NCBI RefSeq assembly: GCF_000024785.1
Contig: NC_013441.1
Span: 4,526,001-4,590,000, forward strand
Source: Gordonia bronchialis DSM 43247
GTDB lineage: Bacteria; Actinomycetota; Actinomycetes; Mycobacteriales; Mycobacteriaceae
Length of the DNA: 64,000 nucleotides
Direction: 5' to 3'
Positions 2,238-18,636 of the stretch are shown here, piece by piece. Numbering within the stretch: the first letter of the stretch is position 1; the number at the start of each line of letters is the position of its first letter. The position numbers and the translations under genes were made by a program. The notes beneath the pieces are model-generated. The model saw only the letters and a program-made list of their open reading frames with translations, did not search any database and was not told the origin of the DNA.

Positions 2238-2420
2238 TCCGATTGCCGAGTTGGCGTTGAGGGCAGAGCTCAATCGACCCCCGAGGTGGGTCCGTACTGG
2301 CAGTGTGATCGCGATTTTCGGTCTGGTGGCCGCGATAGTCTTCCGCCTGGCCCGGCCGGCCTCCTGTGGTGATTGCTTCGAGACCCTCGTTCCCGGCGCC
2401 CACGCCCGATGGCCACAAAA

Positions 2421-2438
2421 TACGAAGGTGGTTAGTAG
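2421..2438. promoter_or_regulatory. BlaI/CopY-type operator, site A
   Basis: TACGA-N7-TAGTA followed by G, 41 bp upstream of the small membrane protein at 2479. It matches the TACTA-N7-TAGTAG pattern seen at three other promoters of the island with one mismatch in the left arm. The right arm runs into a -10-like TAGAAG, so a bound repressor would block RNA polymerase. Confidence 0.6.
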
Positions 2439-2478
2439 AAGTGGGGTGTGATGCGGGTGTGCGGGGAGGTGGTGAGGC

Positions 2479-2808
2479 ATGACTGACGGTGTCGCGGTGC
2501 GGCGTGCGGGTCGGTTCGGCCCGCGCGGTCCTGCCCGTACGATCTCCCGTGCGGTGGGTCTTGCTGTGGTGATGTTTGAGGCGGTGGCCGCGTTCTGGCT
2601 GGTGATGCTGCTCCGAACGTCGGATCTCGTGCCATCCGACCCCCGCTCAGGAGTCGGGCGCGGTGATCCGGTTGAGCTGCGGGTGCTGACCGCTGTGGAT
2701 GTGCACGACTGGGTGTCGGCTCTGAGTGCTGCGGCCTTCGCTGCGGGTGTGGCCGGTGCGCTGGTGGCGCGTCTACTCCCAGCAGTCAAGGGGCGCGCGA
2801 CCGGTTGA
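2479..2808 (+). CDS. small membrane protein of the copper island
   Basis: 109 residues, not recognised. Two hydrophobic segments (about 25-46 and 83-104) with a short hydrophilic loop rich in Asp and Arg suggest a two-helix inner-membrane protein. An N-terminal Arg-rich stretch would sit in the cytoplasm. The start ATG has GGAGGTGG upstream. It is transcribed divergently from, and probably repressed by, the BlaI-family protein next door, because operator site A lies 41 bp upstream. A sensor or accessory role alongside the M56 protease is possible but not shown. Confidence 0.65.
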   Translation: MTDGVAVRRAGRFGPRGPARTISRAVGLAVVMFEAVAAFWLVMLLRTSDLVPSDPRSGVGRGDPVELRVLTAVDVHDWVSALSAAAFAAGVAGALVARLLPAVKGRATG

Positions 2809-2861
2809 GTAGTCGGGCCTGGGCCTCGCCGGAGTTTCCCTTGTCGGAGGGTTTCTATGGC

Positions 2862-3248
2862 TTAGGCTTTGGTGCCGCCGCCGCGGGTGTGGCGAGGTTT
2901 AAGGGTGAGGTATTCGCTGAGCACTTCACGCTCGGCGGGTGTCACGGTCTGGGCGAAGTGCATCAGTACTGCCGCGGAGTCCCCGCTGGCGTCGAGGACC
3001 TGACGCAAGGTGCGTGAGGTGGCCTCTTCACGGGTCTGCATGGGGAAGTACCGGTAGGCGCGGCTGACTTTTTCTCGACCGACGAACCCTTTTTTGTGCA
3101 GGTTGGTGACGACGGTGAGCACTGTGGTGTAGGCCGGTTCGCGGTCGTGGAGTTCCTCGACTAGGTCGTGCACCGACATCGCCGCACCGGCTGACCACAG
3201 CACGTCCATCACTGCGCGTTCCAGTGAACCCAGCCCAGTCATTTTCAC
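2862..3248 (-). CDS. BlaI/MecI/CopY-family repressor
   Basis: 128 residues with an N-terminal winged helix (about 5-75: LGSLERAVMDVLW, MSVHDLVEEL, AYTTVLTVVTNLHKKGFV), the signature of the penicillinase-repressor family, and a C-terminal dimerisation helix. These repressors are inactivated by cleavage through an M56 metalloprotease (BlaR/MecR) or, in CopY, by metal. There is no CxC metal-binding tail here, so proteolysis is more likely. An M56 protease is encoded at 17451 in the same island. Its own promoter carries operator site B. It lies 41 nt downstream of the sensor kinase gene. Confidence 0.9.
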   Translation of the reverse strand: MKMTGLGSLERAVMDVLWSAGAAMSVHDLVEELHDREPAYTTVLTVVTNLHKKGFVGREKVSRAYRYFPMQTREEATSRTLRQVLDASGDSAAVLMHFAQTVTPAEREVLSEYLTLKPRHTRGGGTKA

Positions 3249-3282
3249 CCACCATCTCTAGATGCGGGTCAATCTTACGACG

Positions 3283-3300
3283 GACTACCTCAGTTAGTAG
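3283..3300. promoter_or_regulatory. BlaI/CopY-type operator, site B (autoregulatory)
   Basis: GACTA-N7-TAGTAG, 35 bp upstream of the blaI-family start codon and overlapping the stop codon of the upstream histidine-kinase gene. On the minus strand a -10-like TAAGAT (3277-3272) lies between the site and the start. This fits autorepression of the regulator from an internal promoter of the operon. Confidence 0.6.
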
Positions 3301-4522
3301 CTTGGTCCCGTTGGAGCGCATCGGCAGCGCCGCGACGCGGGCGGTGTTTGAAGGCCACGGAGAATTCGGTTCCAGGGGTGCTGCGGTGGATGTGACGTCG
3401 GGTGGTGGTCGGCAACGTGATGGTGAAGGTGGCTCCGTGTCCGGCTCCCAGGCTTTCGGCGAGCAAGGTGCCCCCATGGTCTTCGACGATAGAGCGGGCG
3501 ATGGTGAGGCCGATTCCGCTGCCGCCGGCGTCTCTGGTGCGTGAGGAGTCGGTGCGGTAGAAGCGGTCGAAGATGTGTGGAAGGTGTTGAGGGGGAATGC
3601 CGTCACCGCAGTCGACGACGCTGATGCGCACCGCGTGTGCCGGGGCGGTGTCGGCTTTCACTACGACTCGCTGGCCCGGGGAGCTGTGTCGCAGCGCGTT
3701 GGTGAGCAGATTGAGCAGTACTTGGCTCATTCGTTCGGCGTCGACATGGATGTGTACGCGCGCGGCGGTGGTGACGATGCCTAGCGTGACTTTGGCGTCG
3801 GTGAACAGGTCGGCGGCTTCTTCGTAGGTCGCGATGAGCAGTTCGTTGACAGTGATCGTCGCCGGGTGGAGGGGCATCTGATGCTCGTCGGCGCTGGATA
3901 CGGTCGCGATGTCCTCGGCGAGACGCTGCAGGCGGGTGGTGGCGGTGCGCACGACGTCAAAGGTCTGTGAGTCGGGAGCCCGGATTCCGTCTTCGATGGC
4001 GTCGGTGATCGCGCCGATGGTGGTCAGTGGGGTGCGCAGTTCGTGGGCAAGGTCTGACAGCATCCGCTTACGGATGTCGTCTTGTGAATCCAGCCGTTGT
4101 GCAAGTTGGTTGATAGCTCGGCTGAGCTGGGTGAACTCGGTGCCGAGCTGGCGATCGGGTACGCGCGTGCGGTAGTTGCCGGCGCCAATAGCCACGGCTG
4201 AGCGGGCGACACTGGCGACTGACTGTTGTACGCGGCGAGCCAGGAACCAGCTGACGGCCGTGGCCAGGATCGTCGAGGTGATCAATGCGGCAGACATTGA
4301 GACGACGATCGAGGAAGTGAACGCGGCTTCGACATGGTCGGCCTGAACTGACCCTGGCTCGAGGCGAGCTTGGCCGAGGTGGTCGTGGAAGGTGTGTGGA
4401 GCCACGAATAGTGCCACGATCGCGACGCTGATGCCGCCGCCGGCGATGACGATAGCTTGAGCGAGCATGAGCCGGGAGCCGAAGCTGCCGGGGATACGTA
4501 ACCGTCGACGTTCATCGTTCAT
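3290..4522 (-). CDS. sensor histidine kinase of the copper island
   Basis: 410 residues from ATG 4522 (an in-frame start 27 nt further upstream also exists). It has two membrane helices (about 20-42 and 72-95) flanking a short extracytoplasmic sensor, HAMP (about 97-150), a HisKA box with LAHELRTP (phospho-His), and HATPase_c with N (LLNLLTNALRHS), GDGIP and GGSGIGL boxes. Its start overlaps the response-regulator stop by 11 nt, so the two are translationally coupled. Similar pairs (CusS/CopS-like) often sense periplasmic copper. The signal here is inferred from context only. Confidence 0.9.
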   Translation of the reverse strand: MNDERRRLRIPGSFGSRLMLAQAIVIAGGGISVAIVALFVAPHTFHDHLGQARLEPGSVQADHVEAAFTSSIVVSMSAALITSTILATAVSWFLARRVQQSVASVARSAVAIGAGNYRTRVPDRQLGTEFTQLSRAINQLAQRLDSQDDIRKRMLSDLAHELRTPLTTIGAITDAIEDGIRAPDSQTFDVVRTATTRLQRLAEDIATVSSADEHQMPLHPATITVNELLIATYEEAADLFTDAKVTLGIVTTAARVHIHVDAERMSQVLLNLLTNALRHSSPGQRVVVKADTAPAHAVRISVVDCGDGIPPQHLPHIFDRFYRTDSSRTRDAGGSGIGLTIARSIVEDHGGTLLAESLGAGHGATFTITLPTTTRRHIHRSTPGTEFSVAFKHRPRRGAADALQRDQATN

Positions 4523-5330
4523 CGCTGGCTCCTCGAGGTTGGCCGTCACCCATCCGGTAGCCCACTCCGCGAACGGTGCGGATGAATCGGCCGGCTACGG
4601 CGCTGTCACCGAGTTTGCGGCGCAGACTGGCGACATGGACTTCGACGACGTGGGCATCGCCGACCCAGTCGGGTCCCCAGATTTCGGTGAGCAGTTGCTC
4701 TCGACTGAACACAACACCGGGCCGCCGCGTGAGCGCTTCGAGAACGTCGAACTCAGTCCGAGTCAGCTCCACGGGTGTGCTCTCCACCTGGACTTCACGA
4801 CCCTGAGGGTCGAGGGTGAGCTCCCCTATCGTCCGCGGGTGCGACTCGCCGGTTGGGGTCGGCCGTGGTCGGCGCAGCATGGCGTCGATGCGCGCCATCA
4901 GCTCACGAGGGCGAAATGGTTTCGTGAGGTAGTCATCGGCCCCCACCGACAGGCCAACGACTGTGTCGACTTCGTCCGCGCGGGCCGTGACCATCACGAT
5001 GTAGGCGTTGGTGAAGGTGCGCAACTGTCGACAGACCTCGACGCCATCGAGTGACGGCAAGCCCAGGTCGAGGATGACTACTGCCGGACTCGCCGTGCGT
5101 GCGGCGGCGACTCCCTCCTGGCCGTCGGGCGCAACGGTGACCGTGAATCCGCTGCGCTGCAGGTAGTCAGCAACGACTTCGGCAATGTCGGGCTCATCTT
5201 CGATCACCAGGGCGTGCAGACCGTGCGGTGGTCGGACCACCGGCATATGGAGGTCGTCGACGACGTTGCGATCTTGGGGCACGCTCCTATGGTGGCGGTG
5301 GTCTACACGATCATCCAACCTCGTGGGCAT
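4512..5330 (-). CDS. OmpR-family response regulator of the copper island
   Basis: 272 residues from ATG 5330. A second ATG at 5246 (244 residues) directly precedes the receiver domain and may be the true start. The receiver domain begins ALVIEDEPD (acidic pocket), with phospho-acceptor Asp in ILDLGLPSLDG and Lys in LTKPFRP. The C-terminal winged-helix DNA-binding domain ends VRGVGYRMG. It forms an operon with the kinase that follows. Likely targets are genes of the island, such as the divergently transcribed cysteine-synthase/MFS pair at 5490; no direct-repeat site was identified with confidence. Confidence 0.9.
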   Translation of the reverse strand: MPTRLDDRVDHRHHRSVPQDRNVVDDLHMPVVRPPHGLHALVIEDEPDIAEVVADYLQRSGFTVTVAPDGQEGVAAARTASPAVVILDLGLPSLDGVEVCRQLRTFTNAYIVMVTARADEVDTVVGLSVGADDYLTKPFRPRELMARIDAMLRRPRPTPTGESHPRTIGELTLDPQGREVQVESTPVELTRTEFDVLEALTRRPGVVFSREQLLTEIWGPDWVGDAHVVEVHVASLRRKLGDSAVAGRFIRTVRGVGYRMGDGQPRGASDER

Positions 5331-6006
5331 TCTTGAGCAGATCTTGATCCACGCTGCCGATCAGCCTTGAGGTTCGGTGGGCAAGGTGGCGGTGTCGCCG
5401 GGTGGAACGTTACGACACAGTTCCCTCTCACACTGATGATCTGATTTCTGCCCGGCGGCGTCCTGTTCAACAACGCAGAGGATGCCCGTGTGACTGTCTC
5501 CTACAGCCTCACCACCAGTGATCCATTCGCCAGTACCTTCCCCGCCGAAGCCGCGTCGCCCCGTGCTGGGCTGAGTCGTCAGCTGGTGGGCGGCACCCCG
5601 GTGTTGCGCATCGAGGAACCCTTCGCCGAGCACGGGCGCGGCTTCTGGGCCAAGCTGGAAGGCTTCAACCCCGGTGGTATGAAAGACCGGCCTGCGCTGC
5701 ACATGGTGGAACGCGCCCGCGCCCGTGAAGAGCTGGCCCCGGGGGCGCGGATCATCGAATCAACTAGTGGGACACTGGGATTAGGCCTGGCTTTAGCGGG
5801 CATCGTGTTCGGGCATCCGGTGACCTTGGTGACCGATCCAGGACTGGAACCGATCTTGCGGCAGATGCTCGCCGCATACGGCGCCCAGGTCGATGTCGTC
5901 AGCGATCCCCATCCGGTCGGGGGTTGGCAACAAGCCCGCCGCGACCGCGTGCGCACCCTGCTCGAGCGCGACGAGGCTGTGATCCACCCCGGCTTTTCCG
6001 GAGAGC

Positions 6007-6960
6007 TCAGGTTGTGAGTGCCCCCTCCGGATTGAGGGTGCGCATGTGATCGTAATGGAGTCGCTCAGCGTGGTCGGGGGTGAGGTCGTCGCAGTAACTG
6101 TGTGGGCGTTCACGGTTGTAGAACGCCACCCATTCGGCCGTGCCCAGTGACAGTTCGGTCGCGCCGTGAAATCGCGGCTGGTTGTCGACGAGTTCGTTCT
6201 TGTAGTCAGAGTTCACCGACTCCGCGAGCGCGTTGTCGTAGCTATCCCCAACGCTGCCAATAGAAGCCGCGATGCCTTCCTCGGCCAACCGCTGCCCGAA
6301 CACAATCGCTGTGTACTGCGATCCCGCGTCTGAATGGTGTATGAGTCTCGTTAAATCAACTACACCGCAACGCTTTCGGTTGTCTATCGCGTTGTTGATG
6401 GCATCGGTAACCAGGTTCACTGTCATTTCCGAGGCCACTTTCCAGCCGACAATCTTGCGGGCGAACACATCGATGACGAACGCCGTGTACGCCCACCCCG
6501 ACTTGGTGCGGCAGTAGGTAAAATCGGCTACCCACAACCGATTTGGTGCCGCAGCATAGAACTGTCTGTCGACCAGATCCGCCGGCCGCGACGCTGCCGC
6601 ATCAGGGATGGTCGTACGCACTCGCTTCTTCTTACTCGCGCCATGCCATCCCATCTCCCGCATCACTCGTTCAACAGTGCATCGAGCAACATCAATACCA
6701 CTGCTGCGCAATACTATCCATGTCTTGCGTGAACCCAGAACCCGCATCAGCGGTCGCTTCCGGCGCAAAGCGAAGATCGCATCGATGACCTGCGCATCGG
6801 CGAACATGCGGGCGCTCGGCCCGCGGTTGATGTGATCATAGTAAGTGGACGGGGCGATGTGGATACCATGCTCGCAGAGCACGGCGCACATCGAATCGAC
6901 GCCCCAGACAAGGCCATCCGCACCCACCTGGTGTCCCTGGTGAGTGCGGATGAACTCCAC
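6007..6960 (-). CDS. IS3-family transposase OrfB (DDE integrase)
   Basis: 317 residues from a GTG at 6960. An HTH_21-like N-terminal region is followed by an rve integrase core. The DDE residues are visible in WVADFTYC (first Asp), [10 protein letters not shown] (second Asp) and [11 protein letters not shown] (Glu). OrfB lies in a different frame from OrfA, and an open frame continues upstream of the GTG into the orfA end, so the active enzyme is probably an OrfAB fusion made by programmed frameshifting, as in other IS3 elements. No disruption seen. Confidence 0.93.
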
Positions 6961-6962
6961 AA

Positions 6963-7292
6963 TTAGCGGTGTGGCCGGTCGATCTCGGCCGCGAAGAAAG
7001 CCGACGCCGCCTTCAGGATCCCGTTCGCTCGTTTGAGCTCGGCCACCTCGCGCTTGAGTCGTCGAATCTCCTCGCTATCGGCCTTGGCTGGCGCGCTGGC
7101 GGCGCCCGACGGCGCCTTGCGCACCCACTGGCGAACCGTCTCCGCCGAGCCGACTCCGAGCAAATCCGCAGTCTTGCCCATCGCCGCCCACTCGGTGGAC
7201 CCCTGAGCCACCAACTGCTCGACCATGTCCACCGCGTCGCGCTTCAACTCATCCGAGTATCGCTTCGATCCTGCCACTGCCATAGGTTTCAT
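6963..7292 (-). CDS. IS3-family transposase OrfA (helix-turn-helix)
   Basis: About 109 residues from ATG 7292, preceded by AAGGGAG (ATG 7283 is an alternative with better spacing). The N-terminal helix-turn-helix ([15 protein letters not shown] to [15 protein letters not shown]) is followed by a leucine-zipper-like coiled coil ([20 protein letters not shown]), the OrfA layout that binds IS ends and allows OrfAB assembly. It stops with TAA at 6963, 3 nt before the first start codon of orfB. Confidence 0.92.
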
Positions 7293-7987
7293 TCTCCCTT
7301 GAGACGAACCCTCCGGAAACACCGGGACGGATCACTGCGTGGTGTCCCGACCAGTATTCCAACCCCGACAACGTGACCGGTTACAGCTCGTTGGGTGTGG
7401 AGTTGATCGCGCAGCTGCGACATATCGATGTGCTGGTGTGCTCGGTGGGCACCGGTGGGCACTCAGCCGGTGTGGCTCATACTCTGCGGCAGTTCAACCC
7501 TGAGCTGGAGGTTGTGGGCGTAGACACCATTGGCTCGACGATTTTCGGCCAGCCGGCACAGTCACGGATTATGCGGGGACTCGGCTCGAGTATCTACCCC
7601 CGCAACGTTGCCTATGACCAGTTCAGTGAGGTGCACTGGGTGGCGCCGGCCGAGGCAGTCTGGGCATGTCGCACCCTGGCCGCCACGCATTACGCCACCG
7701 GCGGCTGGAGCGTGGGCGCGGTGGCCCTGGTCTCGGGCTGGCTGGCGCGTACTCGTTCGGCCGATACGCGCATCGCGGCGGTGTTCCCCGATGGCCCCGC
7801 TCGCTACTACTGAACCATTTACAACGATGAGTACTGCCGCGCTCACGACCTGATCGGCGCCCCGGCGCCGCCCACTGAACCCCGCACCATCAGCGATCCG
7901 CTCACTCAGGTCGCGAGCAGCTGGACGCGGTGCCCTACCATCATCGACCCCACTTGCGTGCCGCACGCCGAGCCCACGAGCTGATCT

Positions 7988-9256
7988 ATGCGACGCCTCT
8001 ACCGCAGTTTCCGCAGCTTCGATCGCCCCAGCCAAGTGCTGATGGTCAATCAGTTCACCATCAATCTCGGCTTCTACATGCTCATGCCCTACCTCGCCGC
8101 CTACCTCGCCGGCCCGCTGGCCCTGGCCGCATGGGCAGTGGGCCTGGTCCTGGGGATACGCAACTTCTCCCAACAGGGCATGTTCCTGATCGGGGGAACA
8201 CTCGCTGACCGCTGGGGTTACAAACCGCTCATCATCGCCGGATGCCTGATGAGGGTCATCGGATTCGTCCTACTGGCCCTGGTCAGTTCGCTGCCGGCGA
8301 TCCTGATCGCCTCGGCGGCAACGGGATTCGCCGGGGCGCTGTTCAACCCCGCCGTACGGGCCTACCTGGCCGGCGACGCCGGTGAGCGCCGCATCGAAGC
8401 ATTCGCCGTGTTCAACGTGTTCTACCAGGCCGGGATCCTGCTCGGGCCGCTGGTCGGACTAGCCCTGACCGCCCTGGACTTCCGGCTCACCTCTCTCTGT
8501 GCGGCAGCAGTTTTCGCGGTCCTGACCCTCGTGCAGATCAAAGCGCTACCCGCAACAACACCTGCCCCGAGCAGCACCTCAATCATTCAGGACTGGCGCA
8601 GCGTCGTCCGTAACCGGCGATTCCTGCTCTTCGCTGCGGCGATGGCCAGCTCTTACGTGCTGTCCTTCCAGATCTACCTCGCCCTGCCCCTACATGCCGA
8701 CCGCATAGCAGACAACCCCACCCTCGCCACCAGTGTTGTCACCGCAATGTTCGTGGTGACCGGTCTGGTGGCCATCGCCGGCCAGCTACGCATCACCACA
8801 TGGTTCGGCAACCGCTGGGGCAGCACCGGCAGCCTGAGCGTGGGAATGACGCTGATGGCTGCAGCTTTCCTGCCCCTAGTCGCCAGCACCGCAACGCATC
8901 AGCGCAACATCGCCCTCAACATCGCCGCCCTGCTACTCACCGCAGCTCTGCTCGCCGCCGCCACCGCAGCAGTGTTCCCATTCGAAATGGACACGGTGGT
9001 GGGACTGGCCCGCGGCACGCTTGTCGCCACCCACTACGGGCTCTACAACACCATCGTCGGGATCGGGATTCTGCTCGGCAACGCCGCGACCGGGTGGCTG
9101 TTCAGCGCGGCCACCACCCGCGACATGCCCGAACTGGTGTGGATCGCTCTAGTCCTCACCGGCATGGCGGCGGCGTCTGCCCTGTTGCTGTTGCACCGCC
9201 GCGGATGGCTCAGTGTCGCCGCCCCCACCGAAGCTCAGCCCACCACAACCCATTGA
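7988..9256 (+). CDS. MFS transporter
   Basis: 422 residues with 12 predicted membrane helices. The loop between helices 2 and 3 carries GGTLADRWGYK, the major-facilitator signature A (G-x3-D-R-x-G-x-[KR]). It resembles MdtH-like drug/metabolite exporters. The start codon lies 3 nt after the native end of the interrupted cysteine-synthase-like gene, so the two were built as one operon and this protein may export a thiol or amino-acid product (inference). The IS insertion upstream may have cut it off from its promoter. Confidence 0.88.
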   Translation: MRRLYRSFRSFDRPSQVLMVNQFTINLGFYMLMPYLAAYLAGPLALAAWAVGLVLGIRNFSQQGMFLIGGTLADRWGYKPLIIAGCLMRVIGFVLLALVSSLPAILIASAATGFAGALFNPAVRAYLAGDAGERRIEAFAVFNVFYQAGILLGPLVGLALTALDFRLTSLCAAAVFAVLTLVQIKALPATTPAPSSTSIIQDWRSVVRNRRFLLFAAAMASSYVLSFQIYLALPLHADRIADNPTLATSVVTAMFVVTGLVAIAGQLRITTWFGNRWGSTGSLSVGMTLMAAAFLPLVASTATHQRNIALNIAALLLTAALLAAATAAVFPFEMDTVVGLARGTLVATHYGLYNTIVGIGILLGNAATGWLFSAATTRDMPELVWIALVLTGMAAASALLLLHRRGWLSVAAPTEAQPTTTH

Positions 9257-9273
9257 TTACCCTAGGGGGGTAA
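9257..9273. promoter_or_regulatory. CsoR-type operator upstream of copZ
   Basis: TTACCC-TAGGG-GGGTAA is a GC-centred inverted repeat of the kind bound by copper-sensing CsoR. It overlaps the 3' boundary of the MFS gene and sits next to a -10-like GGTATAA (9275-9280) that would drive copZ and the genes behind it. CsoR is encoded at 15194. Confidence 0.75.
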
Positions 9274-9359
9274 GGTATAACGGTGGTGTGGCGAGACGCC
9301 ACAGCGACAGGCCCCCTGAGGGTCGTTGGCACCACTGCTGTACCGAAAGGGCACATCTC

Positions 9360-9566
9360 ATGAGCACATCGACAGTGATCGTCTCCGGAATGACGTGTGG
9401 GCACTGCGCGGCGTCGGTGCGTGAAGAAGTCGGCGCACTGGCCGGCGTAACTGACGTCGACGTCGACGTGGCCAGCGGGCGAGTCACCATCTCTAGCTCG
9501 GCCCCGATCGAGGCCGACGCGATCCGCGGCGCGATCGAAGAGGCCGGCTACCACCTGGCGCAGTAG
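9360..9566 (+). CDS. copZ: copper chaperone, heavy-metal-associated (HMA) domain protein
   Basis: 68 residues forming a single HMA ferredoxin-like domain. GMTCGHCAASV carries the CxxC Cu(I) site, and the end GAIEEAGYHL is typical. An open frame reaches back to 9213 through the operator, but the ATG at 9360 with GAAAGGG upstream gives the standard length. It would carry Cu(I) in the cytoplasm to the ATPases encoded behind it and possibly to CsoR. Confidence 0.93.
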   Translation: MSTSTVIVSGMTCGHCAASVREEVGALAGVTDVDVDVASGRVTISSSAPIEADAIRGAIEEAGYHLAQ

Positions 9567-9658
9567 CCGACGAGGGGCTGAAGTGTCTGCCCCACTGGCG
9601 ACTTCAGCCTCTCCCGGGCGGCGTGGGTGTCGCCACCACCGATGACAGGAATCCAGCG

Positions 9659-10618
9659 ATGAATGTTCCAACCAAGCTCGGCGTCTTCGCCGCGGCCCTG
9701 CTGATAGTTTTCGCTGCGGCGTACGCCATCGCCGCTGGTGTCGCTCCCGACAGGGCGTCGACCTCCCCGGCTGAGTCCGCCCATGCCGATCACAATGCTG
9801 CACCACAGTCGCGAACATCCGCCTCGTCTCCGGGGGCCGATCAGGTTCGCGGAGTTTCGATGGCAGCAGCCGGCTTCATCCTGGGGAATGTGGTGGCACC
9901 CCATGCGTCCGGGGTGCAGGCACCGCTGAGCTTTGAGATCCTCGACGCCGCCGGGGCCGCGGTCACCGACTTCGCCACCGAGCACGACAAGCAGCTGCAC
10001 CTGATCGTCGTCCGCGCGGATGGCACCCACTTCCGACACGTGCACCCCACTCTCTCGCCCGAAGGGCGCTGGACGCTGCCCTGGCAGTGGGCGACGGGAG
10101 GCAGCTACCGGATCTACGCCGACTTCGTGCCCGCCGCCACCGGCCAACCCCTCACCCTCACCAGCACCGTCGAAGTCAGCGGTGACTACCAGCCGGCCCC
10201 ACCCGCCGCCGAATCACGACAGTCATCCGTCGACGGGTTCGACATCGGGCTGGCCGGTCATCTGCGCGCGGGCGTCGAGTCCGAACTGACCGTCACCGTG
10301 CGCCGAGCAGGACAACCGGTCACCACCCTGCAGCCGTATCTGGGCGCTTTCGGTCACTTGGTGGCCCTGCGACAGGGTGACCTGGCCTACCTGCATGTTC
10401 ACCCTGAGGGCGCGGCACCGACTGCCGGTCAACTCGCGGGACCACAGGTCCGCTTCGCCACCACCGCCCCCACCCCGGGCCGCTATCTGCTCTACCTCGA
10501 CTTCCAGGTCCAGGGCGCTGTGCATACCGCCACCTTCGTTCTCGACGTCCCCACCGGCGCCCCGGCCCCGACACCTGACTCCACGGCCCCCTCGGCCGAT
10601 CCGCACGCCGGACACTAA
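9659..10618 (+). CDS. membrane-anchored/secreted His-rich protein of the copper operon
   Basis: 319 residues from ATG 9659. An N-terminal hydrophobic segment (about 6-26) acts as signal or anchor. A Ser/His-rich linker (AESAHADHN) follows, then two beta-sandwich-like regions each with a HxH pair (FRHVHP near residue 130, YLHVHPEG near 250) and a C-terminal DPHAGH tail. The histidines suggest metal binding outside the membrane. It lies between copZ and copA, so it probably handles copper in the cell envelope. The family is usually annotated only as heavy-metal-binding or hypothetical. Confidence 0.7.
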   Translation: MNVPTKLGVFAAALLIVFAAAYAIAAGVAPDRASTSPAESAHADHNAAPQSRTSASSPGADQVRGVSMAAAGFILGNVVAPHASGVQAPLSFEILDAAGAAVTDFATEHDKQLHLIVVRADGTHFRHVHPTLSPEGRWTLPWQWATGGSYRIYADFVPAATGQPLTLTSTVEVSGDYQPAPPAAESRQSSVDGFDIGLAGHLRAGVESELTVTVRRAGQPVTTLQPYLGAFGHLVALRQGDLAYLHVHPEGAAPTAGQLAGPQVRFATTAPTPGRYLLYLDFQVQGAVHTATFVLDVPTGAPAPTPDSTAPSADPHAGH

Positions 10619-10680
10619 CTCGCTGACCAGCGCCACCCGGGGCACTGCGCCGAGGCATTCACCCAACGAGGAACCCCCCC

Positions 10681-13038
10681 ATGACCACCTCAGCTCCGAT
10701 CCACCCACCTGCGGCCACCGCCGAGCAGACAGGCGCCGTCGATATCGAACTCGCCGTGTCGGGCATGACGTGTGCATCGTGCGCGGCACGCATCGAACGC
10801 ACACTGAACAAACTCGACGGAGTGAGCGCCTCGGTGAACTACGCCACCGAAAAAGCTCACGTCAGCGCACCCGCCGGTGTCGACCCACACCTGCTGATCG
10901 AGACCATCGAACAGGCCGGATACCACGCTGCGCTGCCCGCCACTCCCACCAAAGGTGCCGCCCCCGACGATGACCCTTCGGACGACGACGGGGAGCTCGT
11001 GGCCTTGCGTCACCGACTGATCGGTGCGGTGGTTCTCTCGGTACCGGTGATCGCGCTGGCAATGGTCCCGGCGTTGCAGTTCACCTACTGGCAGTGGGCG
11101 TCGTTGACGTTGGCCGCGCCAGTGATCGTGTGGGCGGCATGGCCGTTTCATCGCGCCGCGTTGCTCAACCTGCGCCACGGTGCGGCCACCATGGACACCC
11201 TCATCTCGGTCGGCACCACCGCGGCGCTGTTGTGGTCGTTGTATGCGTTGTTCTTCGGCACCGCCGGACAACCAGGCATGACCCACGGATTCACCCTGAC
11301 GGTCAGCGCTTCTGACGGTGCAGGCAACATCTACCTTGAGGTAGCCGCGGGGGTCACGATGTTCGTCCTGGCCGGCCGATACTTCGAGAAGCGGTCCAAA
11401 CGGCGCGCCGGTGCGGCGTTGCGGGCCTTGTTGGAGCTGGGCGCCAAAGACGTCACAGTGATCAGGGACGGCCACCAGCATCGGATCCCGATCGGCGAGC
11501 TCGCCATTGACGACGAGTTCAATGTGCGCCCCGGCGAGAAGATCGCCAGCGACGGTGTGGTGGTGTCCGGCACCTCGGCAGTCGATGCCAGCATGGTCAC
11601 CGGCGAGTCGATGCCAGTCCAGGTCGCCCCCGCCGACACCGTGACCGGCGGAACGGTCAACGCCGGCGGGCACCTGCGGGTGCGGGCGACCCGCGTGGGA
11701 GCGGACACCCAACTCGCGCAAATGGCCGCGATGGTCGAACGCGCCCAGACCGGCAAAGCCCACGCCCAGCGACTGGCCGACCGGATCTCAAGTGTCTTCG
11801 TGCCGGTGGTCATCGCCGTCGCCATCGCTGTCCTCGGCGCGTGGATCGGCGCCGGCTATCCCCTGCAAGCGGCGTTCACCGCCGCGGTCGCTGTGCTGAT
11901 CATCGCCTGCCCCTGCGCTCTGGGACTGGCCACCCCGACCGCACTTCTGGTCGGTACCGGCCGCGGAGCCCAACTCGGCATCGTGATCAAAGGCCCCGAA
12001 GTCCTGGAATCCACCCGAACCGTCGACACCGTTGTCCTCGACAAAACCGGCACGGTCACCACGGGACAGATGACACTCGTCCAGGTCACCACTGCTCCCT
12101 CCACCACTCGCGAAGACGTGCTCGCCCTCGCGGGGGCGGTGGAGAATGCCTCCGAGCACCCCGTCGCGGCCGCCATCGCTGCTGGTGCAGCCGCCGAAGT
12201 CGGGCCGCTCGACGAGGTCGACGACTTCCGCAACTTCGAAGGTCGAGGCGTGCGCGGTCTGGTCCAGGGACGTGTGGTCACCGTCGGGCGTCCGACGCTG
12301 CTGGCCGAACACGGCATCGCCGTGGATGACCCTCACCTCAACGAGGCGCAGACCGCCGCCGAAGAAGCCGGACAGACCGCCGTACTCGTCGCCTGGGACG
12401 GCCGCGCCCATGCGGTCCTGGCGGTCGCCGATGCGATCAAACCCACCAGCGCACACGCCATCGCCCGGCTCGCCGCACTGGGTATGACGCCCATCCTGTT
12501 GACCGGCGACAACCAGACCGTCGCCGATGCCGTGGCCGCTGAGGTCGGTATCGACACCGTCATCGCTAACGTCTTGCCGGCCGACAAAGCCGCCGTCATC
12601 ACCGACCTGCAATCCGACGGCAAGGTTGTGGCCATGATCGGCGACGGCGTCAACGACGCCGCTGCCCTGGCCCACGCCGATCTCGGGCTGGCGATGGGCA
12701 CCGGCACCGACGCCGCCATGCATGCCGCTGACATCACCCTGGTCCGCGGCGACCTCAACGCTGCCGCCGACGCGATCGCCTTGGCACGCACCACTCTGAA
12801 AACGATCAAAATGAACCTGTTCTGGGCATTCGCCTACAACGTCGCCGCGATACCGCTGGCCGCGCTGGGACTGCTCAACCCCATGCTGGCTGGGGCCGCC
12901 ATGGCGTTGTCCAGCGTGTTCGTCGTCAGCAACAGCCTGCGGCTGCGCGCCTTCACCAGCCCGCCCCACTCATCGTCCACAGTTCCACCCACCAACCCCT
13001 CGACGTATACCCCCCAGGGGTATAAGGTAGCGGCATGA
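10681..13038 (+). CDS. copA: Cu(I)-exporting P1B-type ATPase (CPC type)
   Basis: 785 residues. One N-terminal HMA domain (GMTCASC, CxxC at 31-34), eight membrane helices, A-domain TGE (VTGESMPV), the intramembrane CPC metal motif at 410-412, the phosphorylated Asp in DKTGT at 454-458, the SEHP motif in the N-domain, and GDGVND at about 654-659. This is the P1B-1 Cu+ export layout. The last codons overlap the CsoR box and the start of the next ATPase (ATGA, 13035-13038), so the C-terminus TPQGYKVAA is partly dictated by an operator. Confidence 0.95.
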   Translation: MTTSAPIHPPAATAEQTGAVDIELAVSGMTCASCAARIERTLNKLDGVSASVNYATEKAHVSAPAGVDPHLLIETIEQAGYHAALPATPTKGAAPDDDPSDDDGELVALRHRLIGAVVLSVPVIALAMVPALQFTYWQWASLTLAAPVIVWAAWPFHRAALLNLRHGAATMDTLISVGTTAALLWSLYALFFGTAGQPGMTHGFTLTVSASDGAGNIYLEVAAGVTMFVLAGRYFEKRSKRRAGAALRALLELGAKDVTVIRDGHQHRIPIGELAIDDEFNVRPGEKIASDGVVVSGTSAVDASMVTGESMPVQVAPADTVTGGTVNAGGHLRVRATRVGADTQLAQMAAMVERAQTGKAHAQRLADRISSVFVPVVIAVAIAVLGAWIGAGYPLQAAFTAAVAVLIIACPCALGLATPTALLVGTGRGAQLGIVIKGPEVLESTRTVDTVVLDKTGTVTTGQMTLVQVTTAPSTTREDVLALAGAVENASEHPVAAAIAAGAAAEVGPLDEVDDFRNFEGRGVRGLVQGRVVTVGRPTLLAEHGIAVDDPHLNEAQTAAEEAGQTAVLVAWDGRAHAVLAVADAIKPTSAHAIARLAALGMTPILLTGDNQTVADAVAAEVGIDTVIANVLPADKAAVITDLQSDGKVVAMIGDGVNDAAALAHADLGLAMGTGTDAAMHAADITLVRGDLNAAADAIALARTTLKTIKMNLFWAFAYNVAAIPLAALGLLNPMLAGAAMALSSVFVVSNSLRLRAFTSPPHSSSTVPPTNPSTYTPQGYKVAA
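13006..13024. promoter_or_regulatory. CsoR-type operator inside the 3' end of copA
   Basis: TATACCCC-CCA-GGGGTATA: perfect 8-bp arms, 3-bp spacer, a strong CsoR box. It lies within copA codons and only 10 bp before the ATG of the second ATPase. The right arm supplies TATAAG (13021-13026), a -10 element that would start transcription at about 13033-13035, giving a leaderless or nearly leaderless mRNA. Confidence 0.8.
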
Positions 13039-15197
13039 ACGAGCACTCTTCCCCTGAGCACGTCGGTCACGACGCCGCCGATGAACGCCACCACGGCCAA
13101 CTCGCCGCAGCGTCACACAACCACCACGATCACCATGCTGAGCGCGCCCGCGCAGACCATGATCACGCTGGGCATGGGGGGCATGGTGATCACGTCGGGC
13201 AGTTCCGGCGGCTGTTCTGGATCATGCTGGCCCTGGCTGTGCCGGTCGTGGCCTTTTCGCCCATGTTCGCGATGCTCATCGGCTATGACCTACCCGATGG
13301 TGAGGTGTTGAAGTGGGTCTCACCGGTGCTGGGTACGGTGATGTACTGCTGGGGTGGGCGGCCGTTCCTGGTAGGCGCCTATTCAGAACTGCGGTCGCGT
13401 GCACCGGGAATGATGCTGTTGATCGCCTTGGCGATCACGGTGGCCTTCGTGGCGTCCTGGGGTGCGAGCATCGGTGTGTTGCACCACGAACTGGACTTCT
13501 GGTGGGAACTGGCGCTGCTCATCGTGATCATGCTGTTGGGGCATTGGATCGAGATGCGGTCGCTGGCCCAGACGACCTCGGCCCTGGACTCGCTGGCCGC
13601 GCTGCTGCCCGATGAGGCCGAACGCGTCGATGGCGACCAGATCACCACGGTTGCTCCCAGTGAGCTGCAGGTCGGAGATGTGGTGATCGTGCGCCCGGGG
13701 GCCAGCGTGCCGGCCGACGGTCGCGTCGTAGACGGCTCGGCCGAGCTCGATGAATCCATGGTCACCGGAGAATCGCGCACGGTGCGCCGCGGCATCGGCG
13801 ATCAGGTGGTGGCCGGCACGGTGGCCACCGACTCGGGGCTGCGGGTCCAGATCACCGCCACCGGCGATGACACGGCGCTGGCCGGGATTCAGCGCCTGGT
13901 GGCAGACGCGCAGAACTCCACCTCCCGCGCCCAGCGGCTGGCCGATTCCGCTGCAGCGCTGCTGTTCTGGTTCGCGCTCGGCTCAGCGATCATCACGGCC
14001 ATCGTGTGGACGGTCATCGGCCAACCCGACCAGGCGGTGATTCGAACCATCACCGTGCTGGTCATCGCCTGCCCGCACGCACTCGGCTTGGCTATCCCCC
14101 TGGTGGTGGCCATTGCCACCGAACGCGCCGCCCGCGGCGGCGTGCTGGTTAAAGACCGGTTGGCACTTGAGGCCATGCGCACTGTGGATGCGGTGCTGTT
14201 CGACAAGACCGGAACCCTGACCAAGGGTGAGCCCACGGTCATCGAGATCGCGGCCGCCGACGGCGTCGATGAGGACACCGTGCTCGCCCTGGCCGCCAGC
14301 GCCGAAGCCGACAGTGAGCACCCGTTGGCGCGAGCGATTGTCGCAGCTGCCGGAGACCGCGCGCGGCCGGTGCCGGCGGCCACCGACTTCACCTCGTCAC
14401 CGGCGGTCGGTGTGACCGCTCGCGTCGAGGGCGCCACAGTGCGGGTGGGCGGGCCCCGCATGCTCGAGGAACAGGGCCATCAGGAACTGGCCATCGCTGA
14501 TCGCTGGCGCGCCGACGGCGCAATCATCCTGCATGTCACCCGCGACACTGAGCTGATTGGAGCTCTCAAACTTGCTGATGAGGTGCGCGGGGAATCCCGC
14601 CAAGCCGTCGAGGTGCTGCACGCCCGCGGGGTCGAGGTTGTGATGATTACCGGCGACGCCGAAGCAGTGGCGCACACCGTCGCTCACGACCTCGGTATCG
14701 ATCGGGTGTTCGCCGGTGTACGGCCGGAAGACAAAGCCAGCAAGGTGGCCGAACTGCAGCACGAAGGCCGCAAGGTGGCGATGGTGGGCGACGGCGTCAA
14801 CGACGCCCCCGCCCTGGCCCAGGCCGATGTGGGCATCGCGATCGGGGCCGGCACCGACGTCGCGATCGCCTCGGCCGGGGTCATCCTCGCCAGCGACGAC
14901 CCCCGCTCGGTGCTGTCGGTCATCGAGCTGTCGGACGCCAGCTACCGAAAAATGAAGCAGAACCTGTGGTGGGCAGCGGGATACAACCTGATCTCTGTAC
15001 CGCTGGCCGCCGGAATTCTCGCGCCCATCGGGTTCGTCCTGCCGATGTCGGTCGGAGCGATTCTGATGTCAGCCTCGACGGTCGTGGTCGCACTCAACGC
15101 GCAACTGTTACGCCGACTCGACCTGCAGCCAGGCGCGAGTACAGTGCGTGGACTGCAGCACAACCGACCGAGATCCATTGAGAAGGTGAGTCCATGA
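13035..15197 (+). CDS. CopB-like P1B-type ATPase (CPH type) with His-rich N-terminus
   Basis: 720 residues. The N-terminal 55 residues hold many His (clusters such as HNHHDHH and HAGHGGHGDH) in place of an HMA domain. TGES, the intramembrane CPH at 346-348, DKTGT at 390-394, SEHP and GDGVND are present. CPH with a His-rich tail marks the P1B-3 group, reported to prefer Cu(II) or Cu(I) over other metals. Its start overlaps copA by ATGA and its end overlaps csoR the same way, so copA, this gene and csoR are coupled, with an extra promoter inside copA. Confidence 0.92.
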   Translation: MNEHSSPEHVGHDAADERHHGQLAAASHNHHDHHAERARADHDHAGHGGHGDHVGQFRRLFWIMLALAVPVVAFSPMFAMLIGYDLPDGEVLKWVSPVLGTVMYCWGGRPFLVGAYSELRSRAPGMMLLIALAITVAFVASWGASIGVLHHELDFWWELALLIVIMLLGHWIEMRSLAQTTSALDSLAALLPDEAERVDGDQITTVAPSELQVGDVVIVRPGASVPADGRVVDGSAELDESMVTGESRTVRRGIGDQVVAGTVATDSGLRVQITATGDDTALAGIQRLVADAQNSTSRAQRLADSAAALLFWFALGSAIITAIVWTVIGQPDQAVIRTITVLVIACPHALGLAIPLVVAIATERAARGGVLVKDRLALEAMRTVDAVLFDKTGTLTKGEPTVIEIAAADGVDEDTVLALAASAEADSEHPLARAIVAAAGDRARPVPAATDFTSSPAVGVTARVEGATVRVGGPRMLEEQGHQELAIADRWRADGAIILHVTRDTELIGALKLADEVRGESRQAVEVLHARGVEVVMITGDAEAVAHTVAHDLGIDRVFAGVRPEDKASKVAELQHEGRKVAMVGDGVNDAPALAQADVGIAIGAGTDVAIASAGVILASDDPRSVLSVIELSDASYRKMKQNLWWAAGYNLISVPLAAGILAPIGFVLPMSVGAILMSASTVVVALNAQLLRRLDLQPGASTVRGLQHNRPRSIEKVSP

Positions 15198-15541
15198 CCG
15201 CTGCGTCCGCACCGGGACAATCCTCCACCCCGGAAGAATCCTCTGCCTCGGAACACTCTTCCCACGGTTACATCAGCGATAAGGGCAAATACCTGGCCCG
15301 CCTCAAGCGCATCGAGGGGCAATCCCGAGGTATCTATCGGATGGTCGACGAGGAGCAGTACTGCATCGACATCCTGACCCAGATTTCGGCGCTGACCAAG
15401 GCGCTGGAGGGGGTCGCGCTGGGTTTGCTCGACGACCATCTCACCCACTGTGTGCTCGATGCCGCCCACGCCGGCGGGGACGAGGCGCAGGAGAAGATCG
15501 CTGAAGCCTCGGCGGCCATCGCTCGCCTCGTTCGTTCCTGA
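15194..15541 (+). CDS. csoR: copper-sensing repressor CsoR
   Basis: 115 residues, DUF156/CsoR-RcnR family. The Cu(I) ligands fit exactly: Cys57, His82 and Cys86 keep the 25- and 4-residue spacings of Mycobacterium tuberculosis C36-H61-C65. RLKRIEGQSRGIYRM is the family's DNA-binding helix. An N-terminal Ser-rich extension of about 28 residues is unusual. It is the last gene of the operon that begins with the CsoR box at 9257. Cu(I) binding would release both boxes. Confidence 0.95.
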   Translation: MTAASAPGQSSTPEESSASEHSSHGYISDKGKYLARLKRIEGQSRGIYRMVDEEQYCIDILTQISALTKALEGVALGLLDDHLTHCVLDAAHAGGDEAQEKIAEASAAIARLVRS

Positions 15542-15548
15542 GCCACCC

Positions 15549-15576
15549 ACCACGCCGGGTTCGTCACAGGCGTGGT
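15549..15576. terminator. candidate bidirectional terminator between csoR and the M23 peptidase gene
   Basis: ACCACGCC and GGCGTGGT form an 8-bp stem around a 12-nt loop, between two convergent genes and overlapping the M23 stop. There is no U-tract, so it is only a candidate. Confidence 0.4.
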
Positions 15577-16499
15577 TCGCCGACCCGCTGCGGCACCACC
15601 GGCCCCGGCGCGCGGGCGTCTGCATCAGCGGCCATCGCCAGAACCACCCCGCGATCGGCCAGCCACTGTGCCGGATCGACGTTGACTCCCGTCGGGTCGA
15701 GAACCTCGAAATGCAGATGCGGGCCGGTCGAGACCCCACGGTTGCCCACTGTGGCGATCGATTGGCCCATCCGTACTCGCGCGCCCTGCTCGAGCAGATT
15801 CTCGTCGTTGTGGCCGTAGGTGGTGATCGTGCCGTCATCGTGCCGGATCCGCATCCACAACCCGAACCCCTCGGCAGGTCCGGAGGTGATGACCTCCCCG
15901 TCAGCTACCGCGACAATGGGCGCGCCCAGATCATTGCCGATATCAATGCCCTGATGGCCCCGTCCGTCACCGAAGGTGGACGTGATCTCGCCCGCAGTCG
16001 GCGCCACCGCACCGCCACTACCGGGCAGCAGCGGTGTCGGCGTTCCGGGTTCCTGCGGCTGGGGGCCATGCGGCTCGTTCGGATCGTGCGGCACGATTGC
16101 GGCGATCAGGGTGGCTACCAGCCGAGCCAGCGGTAACGCGTCGATGATCCGGAACCCGTCTATCGGATCAATGAGCGAAAACGTGCCGAAGCACTGCAGT
16201 GCGGCTGCACTGCCCGCATCGCCGACGCTGCCCGACTGGGCCTGAGCGCCCAGGCAGGACGCCGTCTGCGTGATCGGCTTCCCCAAATTCGCCGCCGCGG
16301 CACCACCCAAAGCGGCCTTCACCGAGTCCTGCACGATCGCGATCAGCTCCCCGGCCACATGTCCATCGGTCGAGGCCGCCGCCGGTGCGGTGGCAATCAC
16401 AGGCGCAACGCCCACGCACACCGCCGCTGCCACCCCCAGCGCTTTGGGGCCCCACTGCTGCCCCGCCTTGACCCGTAGCGATGTCAACACCATCTGCAT
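15564..16499 (-). CDS. secreted M23 (LytM-type) peptidase
   Basis: 311 residues from ATG 16499, which has GGGAAAGG upstream (longer frames exist but lack this). A signal peptide ends at about APAAAS. A Pro-rich linker leads to a C-terminal peptidase M23 domain with Zn ligands in GHQGIDIGN and GPHLHFEV, plus TYGH. Such enzymes cut peptide cross-bridges of peptidoglycan or serve as activators. It lies inside the copper island, convergent with csoR, and may remodel the wall around envelope copper proteins (inference). Confidence 0.85.
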   Translation of the reverse strand: MQMVLTSLRVKAGQQWGPKALGVAAAVCVGVAPVIATAPAAASTDGHVAGELIAIVQDSVKAALGGAAAANLGKPITQTASCLGAQAQSGSVGDAGSAAALQCFGTFSLIDPIDGFRIIDALPLARLVATLIAAIVPHDPNEPHGPQPQEPGTPTPLLPGSGGAVAPTAGEITSTFGDGRGHQGIDIGNDLGAPIVAVADGEVITSGPAEGFGLWMRIRHDDGTITTYGHNDENLLEQGARVRMGQSIATVGNRGVSTGPHLHFEVLDPTGVNVDPAQWLADRGVVLAMAADADARAPGPVVPQRVGEPRL

Positions 16500-16692
16500 G
16501 CGGTCGGACCTTTCCCGCGGACGTCGTAGACCCACGCACGAGTGCCATGCGTGTACCCGCGAGATCACACCACAAGTCACTTGTGCCCCACCAGTCACAC
16601 GCGGCTCCACTACGAAGCGAACTAATCAGGCATTAGCGGCTTTGTTTGCGCAGTTCACCGCCCGTTTTGTGGGTGCCGGGCAGGCGACTAAC

Positions 16693-16710
16693 TACTATCG
16701 GTGTTAGTAG
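16693..16710. promoter_or_regulatory. BlaI/CopY-type operator, site C
   Basis: TACTA-N7-TAGTAG, the best copy; within CTACTA-N7-TAGTAG both arms are perfect. The right arm runs into a -10-like TAGAAT (16708-16713), 59 bp upstream of the DUF305 start. It should place the DUF305 lipoprotein under the BlaI-family repressor. Confidence 0.68.
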
Positions 16711-16768
16711 AATTGTTATCGAAGCGCCGCCGGGCGGTGGCGAAGTATCACTCTTGAGGAGGAGATCG

Positions 16769-17422
16769 ATGAGAGTCACACGAACCGGTGTCGTCGTTGC
16801 TGCCGCGGCGGCTGTTCTGACAGTGGTGGCCGCGTGTTCGGACACCTCGACTGAGGATCATTCCTCGATGTCGGGGATGGGTACCAGCACGGTCAGTACC
16901 GAATCGTCAGCGGCGGCCTCTGCCGAACACAACAGCGCGGACATCTCGTTCGCCCAGCAGATGATCCCGCACCACACCCAGGCGATCATGATGAGCGACA
17001 TCCTGTTGGAGAAGGACAACATCAACCCCCAGGTCGTCAGTCTGGCCCAGCAGATCAAAGACGCTCAGCAGCCTGAGATCGAGCAGATGCAGTCGTGGCT
17101 GAAGCAATGGGGAGCCCCACTCGAGGGCCAGGGACACAACATGGACATGGGTACGTCGATGGCGCCGGGTTCCTCCCCGATGCCGTCGATGATGGGCATG
17201 ATGTCGCCAGAACAGATGCAGCAGCTACGCCACGCGCAAGGAGCCGAGGCGTCGCGCCTGTTCCTGACGCAGATGATCGAACACCATCGCGGCGCCATCG
17301 CCATGGCCAAGACCGAGATTCAAGACGGCCAATCGCCCGAGGCGATCGCTCTGGCACGTCAGATCGTCACTGATCAGGAGAGCGAAATTGCGAGGATGCA
17401 GCAGCTTCTCAACAACCCCTAG
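16769..17422 (+). CDS. DUF305 lipoprotein
   Basis: 217 residues from ATG 16769 with AGGAGGAG upstream; an open frame back to 16646 lacks a start of equal quality and crosses operator site C. A lipobox (VVAAC) gives a lipidated envelope protein. Two DUF305 modules carry MIPHHTQAI and MIEHHRGAIAMA, and the Met/His-rich middle (MDMGTSM, MMGMM) is a plausible copper ligand set. DUF305 proteins are common in metal-resistance islands. The role is probably periplasmic copper binding, regulated by BlaI/M56. Confidence 0.88.
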   Translation: MRVTRTGVVVAAAAAVLTVVAACSDTSTEDHSSMSGMGTSTVSTESSAAASAEHNSADISFAQQMIPHHTQAIMMSDILLEKDNINPQVVSLAQQIKDAQQPEIEQMQSWLKQWGAPLEGQGHNMDMGTSMAPGSSPMPSMMGMMSPEQMQQLRHAQGAEASRLFLTQMIEHHRGAIAMAKTEIQDGQSPEAIALARQIVTDQESEIARMQQLLNNP

Positions 17423-17450
17423 CGGTCGGACCTGCCCGGGTCGGTCTCGG

Positions 17451-18401
17451 CTACACACACATCGCGATCACCATCGCCGAGACGACACCGGACACCGCTA
17501 GCGTGGTCGGCACCGCCACCACACCAGCCACCGCCGCGGCAGCACCCACATGATGACGTCGCGACCGGCACCGGTGACCGGAGTCCAAGCGGCTCAACCG
17601 AGGCCCCACCGACGACGAATCGCTGATCGACAACACACCCACCGGGCCCGCTACAGGTCCCGAACGGGCCAACGTTCCCAACGCCGAGCAGACCGCCCGC
17701 GCACCCACCAGCTGGGCCGCGCGGGCATCGGCGGCTTGCTCGACCAAGCCGGCGACCTCACGGCCCGCGCGGCTGAACAACGGAATCAGCGGGAACGCAC
17801 GCCCGAGAGCGCGGGCCGCCAACACCACGGTGTGATGACGTTGCCGCCGGTGTGCGCGCTCATGAGCAACGACGGCATCGAGTTCCTCACCGGACAACGC
17901 CGCCTGCAACCCGGTCGTGGCGGCAATGCCGGCATCCTTGCCCGGCAGACAAAACGCCATCGGCCGCCCGTCGGCGAGCCACCACACATCGGGATAGCGC
18001 TCACTGCGGGCGCCCACCAACCGCAACGACTGAAGATACTCCTCACGAGCAACACGCATCCGCACCGCCGATCGCACCGCGATCGTCACCGCTCGGACAA
18101 TCGCTGCCACGGTCACCACCGCCAGCACGCCACCAGAGATCGCTTCCACCCGCGGGGATGCGCCGTGTGACAACACCCGCAGACACGACACCACCTCAGA
18201 CAACGAATGGATGCCGAAATGACCGGGAACCGCCAGCGTCACAACAGCTCCCACCCACAACAACGCAAACACGACCTGCGCGGCCGGCCAGGCCACCAAC
18301 ACCCAACGAGCATCGATACGGCCCTGCACCCGAACCATCCATCGAGGCCACAGCCAGCCCAGCACACCTGCGGCGACAACTAACACCACCGCTGCACTCA
18401 T
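17451..18401 (-). CDS. M56-family membrane metalloprotease (BlaR/MecR-type, no sensor domain)
   Basis: 316 residues. Membrane helices at about 3-20, 35-58, 88-110 and 290-312. The zinc motif HERAH (180-184) lies in the cytosolic peptidase region. BlaR1/MecR1 have a C-terminal penicillin-binding sensor domain, which is absent here, so the signal must come from the membrane part or a partner. It is the natural protease for the BlaI-family repressor at 2862, although 14 kb separates them; the pair is usually adjacent. It is convergent with the DUF305 gene. Confidence 0.88.
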   Translation of the reverse strand: MSAAVVLVVAAGVLGWLWPRWMVRVQGRIDARWVLVAWPAAQVVFALLWVGAVVTLAVPGHFGIHSLSEVVSCLRVLSHGASPRVEAISGGVLAVVTVAAIVRAVTIAVRSAVRMRVAREEYLQSLRLVGARSERYPDVWWLADGRPMAFCLPGKDAGIAATTGLQAALSGEELDAVVAHERAHRRQRHHTVVLAARALGRAFPLIPLFSRAGREVAGLVEQAADARAAQLVGARAVCSALGTLARSGPVAGPVGVLSISDSSSVGPRLSRLDSGHRCRSRRHHVGAAAAVAGVVAVPTTLAVSGVVSAMVIAMCV

Positions 18402-18566
18402 GGATGCTCACCCATCGTTCGCCTCGATCCTCGACGCCCGCCGTCGTGCTCGCTGAGACCCACGCTCAATACACCTTCCCGGCGGTCCGCCACCTGCACC
18501 ACCAGCCAGTATGCCCCAGGGGCTCGTCCGTGACGCCGCAACTCCAGCACCCACCGCGCCGCCAAT

Positions 18567-18584
18567 TACTAGGCCCTATAGTAG
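18567..18584. promoter_or_regulatory. BlaI/CopY-type operator, site D
   Basis: TACTA-N7-TAGTAG in the divergent region between the M56 gene (minus, start 18401) and the hypothetical gene at 18637. On the plus strand it overlaps TATAGT (18577-18582), a -10 element placing transcription start near the ATG at 18589, which opens a 10-codon frame (MTRVDPACAY). The site could control either or both flanking genes. Confidence 0.62.
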
Positions 18585-18636
18585 TTAGATGACGCGGGTT
18601 GACCCAGCCTGCGCGTACTAGTTCGAGGGATGCGCT

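Follow-up and report, generated by a model that had tools for sequence, protein, structure and literature searches.

Probable BlaI-type operators in a duplicated copper locus of Gordonia bronchialis suggest a dispersed BlaI-M56 regulon

Why does a copper locus of Gordonia bronchialis DSM 43247 carry one and the same palindrome ahead of genes as different as a BlaI-family repressor, a DUF305 protein and an M56-type membrane metalloprotease, and which regulator reads it? The locus lies in a 64,000-nucleotide stretch (NC_013441.1, positions 4,526,001 to 4,590,000; hereafter the window, in whose numbering window positions are given), and the initial annotation had described it as a copper island, which domain searches of the neighbourhood corroborate (Table 1). 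The four operator-like sites that it had reported (TACTA-N7-TAGTAG or near copies) are real: they are present at all four coordinates, without mismatch at 16693 and 18567 and with one at 2421 and 3283, and all are palindromic and stand 35-166 bp ahead of predicted starts. The site at 18567 lies 166 bp from the M56 start codon (ATG 18401) and 53 bp from that of the divergent 105-aa open reading frame (ORF; GTG 18637), while the one at 16693 is also ~190 bp upstream of the divergent M23 gene as called (the paralogous distance is 193 bp). Allowing up to two mismatches to TACTA-N7-TAGTAG, the window holds 11 matches (five places on both strands, plus 42396), as compared to a mean of 0.43 and a maximum of 3 in 100 dinucleotide shuffles. 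Two-mismatch matches additional to the four sites fall at 9549 and 42396.

At the scale of the genome (two contigs, 5.29 Mb; chromosome 5,208,602 bp), TACTA-N7-TAGTA with at most one mismatch occurs at 33 places: 4 in the window, 23 within 94 kb at 2.769-2.863 Mb and 6 elsewhere. The two copper regions thus hold 27 of the 33 (~245 per Mb there vs ~1.2 per Mb elsewhere), and the whole-genome search disposes of the possibility, raised by the initial annotation, that the motif might be equally frequent elsewhere, its density being ~200x lower outside these regions. The unusual feature is this clustering and not the genome total, given that the backwards-read pattern is no rarer across the genome (201 vs 33 places at one mismatch; 12 vs 15 exact); this control is not a fair null, and the rarity of the motif is not used here as an argument. 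Five of the 6 outlying places precede cydA-like, atp, DUF3817-like, cytochrome-b-like and ctaB-like genes, and the sixth falls within a gatA-like gene (names read from the sequences, not from Pfam).

The window segment is itself a duplicate. In inverted order it matches the 2.77-2.86 Mb region over 2398-5979 (99.4% identical), 7335-19477 (96.7%) and 19470-19997 (93.0%), and the unmatched stretch 5980-7334 holds transposase genes. Four BlaI-family genes of full length are present in the genome, along with four M56 genes; a further PF03965 match, within a frame of 553 aa, is partial. The pairs comprise the core one (2.943 Mb), one whose members adjoin (BlaI-B/M56-B, 2.798 Mb) and two copies of the split pair seen in the window. 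The proposed circuit of one repressor, one M56 protease and four operators has consequently to be given up, and the earlier reading was partly right and too small.

Do the sites belong to BlaI? Around relatives of the window BlaI (80 loci) we found 158 motif places at up to one mismatch, vs 4 for a half-swapped pattern, and the blaI promoter carries a site in 55 of 77 loci (3 of the 80 had too little upstream DNA to be counted) vs 151 of 9628 background windows (1.6%). This ties the sites to BlaI-family genes, as had been suggested, and makes autoregulation of blaI through the second operator of the window probable on sequence grounds. The arms of the four window operators (10 positions each) show no variation in 7, 7, 14 and 14 copies, while the flanks vary at 89 of 1200 positions. 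Several observations call for caution. The sites at 2421 and 3283 are the weak pair of the four (22.1 and 13.4 in a matrix trained on the very sites that it ranks, whose scores span 12.2-36.9), the one at 3283 runs into the 3' end of the kinase gene, and the paralog of the one at 2421 sits within the 3' end of a 137-aa ORF. Moreover, the loci are not independent, as about half are from Micromonospora, 22 of the 77 have no site at the blaI promoter, and the stretch around the genome's own core blaI has none even at two mismatches.

The window BlaI matches PF03965 with 92.1 bits (cut-off 22.6), and five named Gordonia have its gene at 98-100% identity. The scissile bond of the BlaI/MecI dimer domain involves a phenylalanine; in the window protein an H-F aligns with the N-F of MecI, and the F is kept in 9 of 10 aligned rows. 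Its best sequence match in the PDB is 2g9w (E 2.2e-15), which we take to be the BlaI of Mycobacterium tuberculosis (Rv1846c), whose sensor-less M56 partner is presumably Rv1845c. The M56 protein of the window (316 aa) has an HExxH zinc motif (HERAH) and, in its model, the membrane topology of BlaR1, to which it aligns over residues 1-291 only, without the extracytoplasmic penicillin-binding domain. The absence of a penicillin sensor noted in the initial annotation is thus borne out; it is not special, since the other M56 genes of the genome are open frames of just 318-342 aa. Since the Pfam search at E 0.001 returned PF01435 (M48) as the sole match and no M56 family (presumably PF05569), the M56 identity is based on the HExxH motif together with the model, the alignment with BlaR1 and the annotation of a plasmid. 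The window-type BlaI and a remote M56 co-occur in 9 of 9 Gordonia genomes that have an intact window-type BlaI.

Of the M56 proteins from copper loci, nearly all fall in one clade (14 rows, SH-aLRT 99; a quick tree without mixture and with long branches, in which Micromonospora was thinned to six rows, L032 excluded and five core Gordonia rows kept), and share a cysteine, invariant among them, that is predicted to lie in an outer loop (Cys73, between TM2 and TM3, in the window protein). The cysteine goes with copper loci in 13 of 14 rows vs 1 of 66 (Fisher p 6e-13, with near-identical pairs, for example window/region and L032/L033, treated as separate); because these proteins form one clade, we do not count the association as independent evidence. 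The loop cysteine is also present in four rows of a DsbA/CcdA type (L230, L232, L233 and L238). Loci L230, L232-L235 and L238 represent a further type of Gordonia BlaI-M56 pair, in which an exact operator adjoins a thioredoxin/DsbA-type gene, joined in 5 of the 6 by a CcdA-type gene (Pfam run on L232 only).

The genes behind the operators of the larger region (assigned for all places except 2794090 and 2815614) belong to the cell wall and envelope (three L,D-transpeptidases (Ldt), M23 peptidases and Lnt), to respiration and thiol chemistry (ctaD with two operators, and ResB, redoxin with CcdA and a DsbA-type protein in two copies each), or to regulation and copper handling (BlaI-A, BlaI-B, M56, a P-type ATPase, DUF305 and an ArsR-ATPase pair); as parts of the region are duplicated, the 23 places are not all independent. 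Several of these genes are second copies of core genes, whose products are 89% (ctaD), 73% (ResB) and 39-54% (Ldt, one over 128 residues only) identical to them. In the stretches fetched, the six core counterparts have no site at up to one mismatch; at two mismatches one lies ~54 bp before the longest-frame start of core ctaD and one inside core ResB. The Ldt motif SNGC is present in all three copies, and 4 of 23 histidine columns differ in the ctaD alignment. Copper reportedly inhibits L,D-transpeptidases (so the title of Peters 2018; not in Gordonia). Copper excess damages cytochrome c assembly in Rubrivivax, again not Gordonia, according to PMC6247083. These reported targets of copper may be linked to the second-copy gene set seen here.

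Comparable arrangements recur in other genomes. Within ~20 kb around blaI, sites at up to one mismatch number 7 in Gordonia lacunae, 8 in Williamsia herbipolensis, 7 in Williamsia limnetica and 6 in Nocardia carnea, and the genes behind them (directed away within 450 bp; Pfam run on ten proteins of these loci) include ctaD, redoxin-CcdA, DsbA and a P-type ATPase in G. lacunae, ctaD, CtaG and Ldt in W. herbipolensis, CopC and CopD-CtaG in N. carnea, and in W. limnetica a CcdA-type gene at just 1 of 7 sites. In another genus (genome G083) 7 of 12 sites have such a gene behind them (a CopZ-CopA run, Lgt, a redoxin-CcdA-ResB run, blaI-M56, a run that includes a multicopper oxidase and a cytochrome c assembly protein, and Ldt). 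No operator was found within 450 bp of the CopM-like and CsoR genes of G083 or of the multicopper oxidase gene of L227. Control of the G083 complex I genes, a run of membrane subunit genes inside the copper region (L211, 7068-14812), was considered and dropped, the nearest operator lying at the 3' end of the run; site 38429 is 0.8 kb ahead of the first same-strand gene. G116 has 5 sites (before ctaD, a CopC-like gene, redoxin-CcdA, a DUF305-containing run and a membrane protein), and G036, G023 and G052 (BlaI 42-43%) each show 5 exact sites, which precede Ldt, M23, redoxin-CcdA and a blaI-M56-containing run. Finally, the window module is found on the mobilizable plasmid pJH63-1, where the 49.6-kb stretch read has a single annotated BlaI, a single annotated M56 ~13 kb from it, and six sites; plasmid records covering at least 80% of the query numbered 3 of 72,556.

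Starting from what the sequences themselves indicate (the sites and their clustering, their association with blaI promoters, the duplicate ctaD, ResB and Ldt genes, and the M56 clade), we hold with modest confidence that the sites are BlaI-type operators and that a BlaI-M56 relay responds to extracytoplasmic copper or thiol damage by inducing copper handling together with replacement parts. What we infer as regards binding, cleavage, choice of partner, signal and the purpose of the second copies is the following. The window would be a duplicated, also plasmid-borne, module of the larger regulon of the copper region, with BlaI dimers repressing operons scattered over that region. Copper or another oxidant would damage extracytoplasmic proteins and activate the sensor-less M56, perhaps via the cysteine in its short outer loop, and the active protease would cleave BlaI in its dimer domain, inducing the whole gene set: copper handling and second copies of extracytoplasmic and membrane machinery (cytochrome oxidase subunit I, cytochrome c maturation, thiol oxidoreductases, L,D-transpeptidases, lipoprotein acylation and M23 peptidases). 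Metal or envelope stress as the signal, proposed by the initial annotation, is a direction in which the gene content points. More tentatively, and with rather more doubt than trust, it may be proposed that accessory BlaI-M56 pairs of Mycobacteriales are in general sensors of copper or thiol damage at the outer surface, whose dispersed operators call up a mobile 'replacement kit' of respiratory and cell-wall enzymes, and that a distinct M56 clade senses through the short TM2-TM3 loop and its invariant cysteine, often followed by a histidine.

The motif appears to have a second user, from which a different reading of the locus arises: the core BlaI (place 2943260) might read all sites as a respiration regulon that the region genes have merely joined, the signal being respiratory failure and not copper. 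A BlaI of ~40% identity, taken as the core BlaI, is present in all 59 Gordonia genomes; the first-listed exact sites at 29 loci of other Gordonia stand before cydA in 15 cases and before atpI in 6, and a family-wide search found an exact site in 66 of 81 genomes, the first-listed ones at 28 loci (three of these genomes being again Gordonia) preceding cydA (16), atpI (2), blaI (1) or genes unmatched by the query set (nine). The motif stands before cydA or atpI in many genomes, and therefore the core BlaI of the family probably uses it, as judged from these positions, for cydAB and the ATP synthase operon. This is in line with published work on M. tuberculosis, where BlaI is reported to bind the Rv1303-atp promoter. 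A copper-starvation study of that species names blaI and the atp genes of its regulon (PMC7924339). The motif ahead of cydA at many family loci (L183-L210 and L112-L140) suggests, and leads us to predict, control of cytochrome bd by BlaI. With ctaD and ResB among the region genes, such a respiration regulon is an understandable yet improbable account of the copper regions, considering that extra operators accompany extra BlaI genes (a median of 2 exact sites in the 38 Gordonia with one BlaI match and 4.5 in the 20 others, G000 being left out), that the copper loci examined have their own BlaI and M56, and that Ldt, M23, DUF305 and copper ATPases are not respiratory. A decaying window copy of little function, with the working system in the 2.77-2.86 Mb region around the adjacent BlaI-B/M56-B, seems to us an equally unlikely explanation: the matching segment ends 23 bp before the site at 2421, without the strong upstream operator of its paralog (2788110), and a transposon splits a cysteine-synthase-like gene, but blaI, M56, CsoR, DUF305 and the two ATPase genes keep open frames, the operator arms are invariant among varying flanks, and the same module persists on pJH63-1 with one BlaI and one M56. 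That the palindromes bind another regulator, or arose by chance, we consider very improbable; a two-component system and CsoR do adjoin, and the read-backwards pattern is as frequent as the motif or more so in this genome and exceeds it in most other Gordonia, but the blaI-promoter tie over many genera, the half-swapped control and the clustering speak against both.

Among the known systems close to the BlaI-M56 relay proposed here is that of M. tuberculosis, where BlaI likewise has several targets, the atp operon reportedly included; the window BlaI differs in being a second, accessory one, encoded on duplicated as well as plasmid-borne DNA, and its putative operators adjoin copper genes and second copies. 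With the staphylococcal BlaI/MecI-BlaR1/MecR1 systems it shares the repressor family, the putative cleavage position and the transmembrane-plus-protease part of BlaR1, and it differs by the missing penicillin-binding sensor, the ~14 kb between repressor and protease, and its many operons. CopY repressors have a cysteine metal-binding motif; the window protein resembles CopY/TcrY as a BlaI-family repressor within a copper locus, but has no cysteine anywhere and scores 31.5 bits against the CopY model (NCBIfam TIGR02698), below the cut-off of 121.95. The two-component system beside blaI recalls CopRS of Corynebacterium glutamicum, which has copper-induced operons, but CopR is reported to bind a 9-bp tandem repeat and not this palindrome.

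In a literature search over titles and abstract openings, with subscription journals thinly covered, none of the papers joined BlaI or M56 to actinobacterial copper loci; as evidence of novelty this is weak. Accounts of copper tolerance usually centre on export, sequestration and oxidation, whereas in these loci a single type of repressor appears to couple copper handling to second copies of respiratory and envelope enzymes, and accessory BlaI-M56 pairs on duplicated and plasmid DNA probably command many operons. A damage-triggered switch to spare parts, if true, would be a form of copper tolerance unlike export or sequestration, and would offer a testable function for sensor-less BlaI-M56 pairs, whose signal did not appear in the titles, abstract openings and passages searched.

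Table 1. Predicted operators and genes of the copper locus (window positions)
Feature	Position	Strand	Remarks
Operator 1	2421..2437	no strand	TACGA-N7-TAGTA, 1 mismatch; weak; 41 bp 5' of ORF 2479
Small membrane protein, 109 aa	2479..2808	+	ORF
BlaI-family repressor	2862..3248	-	PF03965
Operator 2	3283..3299	no strand	GACTA-N7-TAGTA, 1 mismatch; 35 bp 5' of blaI GTG 3248
Sensor histidine kinase	3290..4549	-	HAMP, HisKA, HATPase_c
OmpR-type response regulator	4512..5330	-	domain search
Heavy-metal/copper P-type ATPase with HMA domain	10681..13038	+	domain search
Copper-translocating P-type ATPase	13035..15197	+	domain search
CsoR-type metal-sensitive repressor	15194..15541	+	PF02583
M23 peptidase	15564..16499	-	divergent from DUF305 gene, operator 3 between them
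Operator 3	16693..16709	no strand	exact TACTA-N7-TAGTA; 59 bp 5' of DUF305 ATG 16769
DUF305 protein	16769..17422	+	CopM family metallochaperone model
M56-type membrane metalloprotease	17451..18401	-	HERAH, BlaR1-like model without sensor domain
Operator 4	18567..18583	no strand	exact TACTA-N7-TAGTA; between M56 and divergent 105-aa ORF
105-aa protein	18637..18954	+	retained in paralog and on plasmid pJH63-1
F510_1955 family glycosylhydrolase-like protein	19090..19926	+	domain search

Searches with the 109-aa membrane protein (Pfam and NCBIfam, E 0.001) and the 105-aa protein (Pfam) gave no match, and the DUF305 protein scores 112.3 bits against the NCBIfam CopM metallochaperone model (cut-off 90). 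At ~5980-7335 of the window a cysteine-synthase-like (PALP) gene is split by transposase genes, its paralog at 2.784 Mb being intact, and at 2058-2237 a short ORF breaks off close to the boundary of the duplicated segment and may be a gene that the rearrangement truncated.

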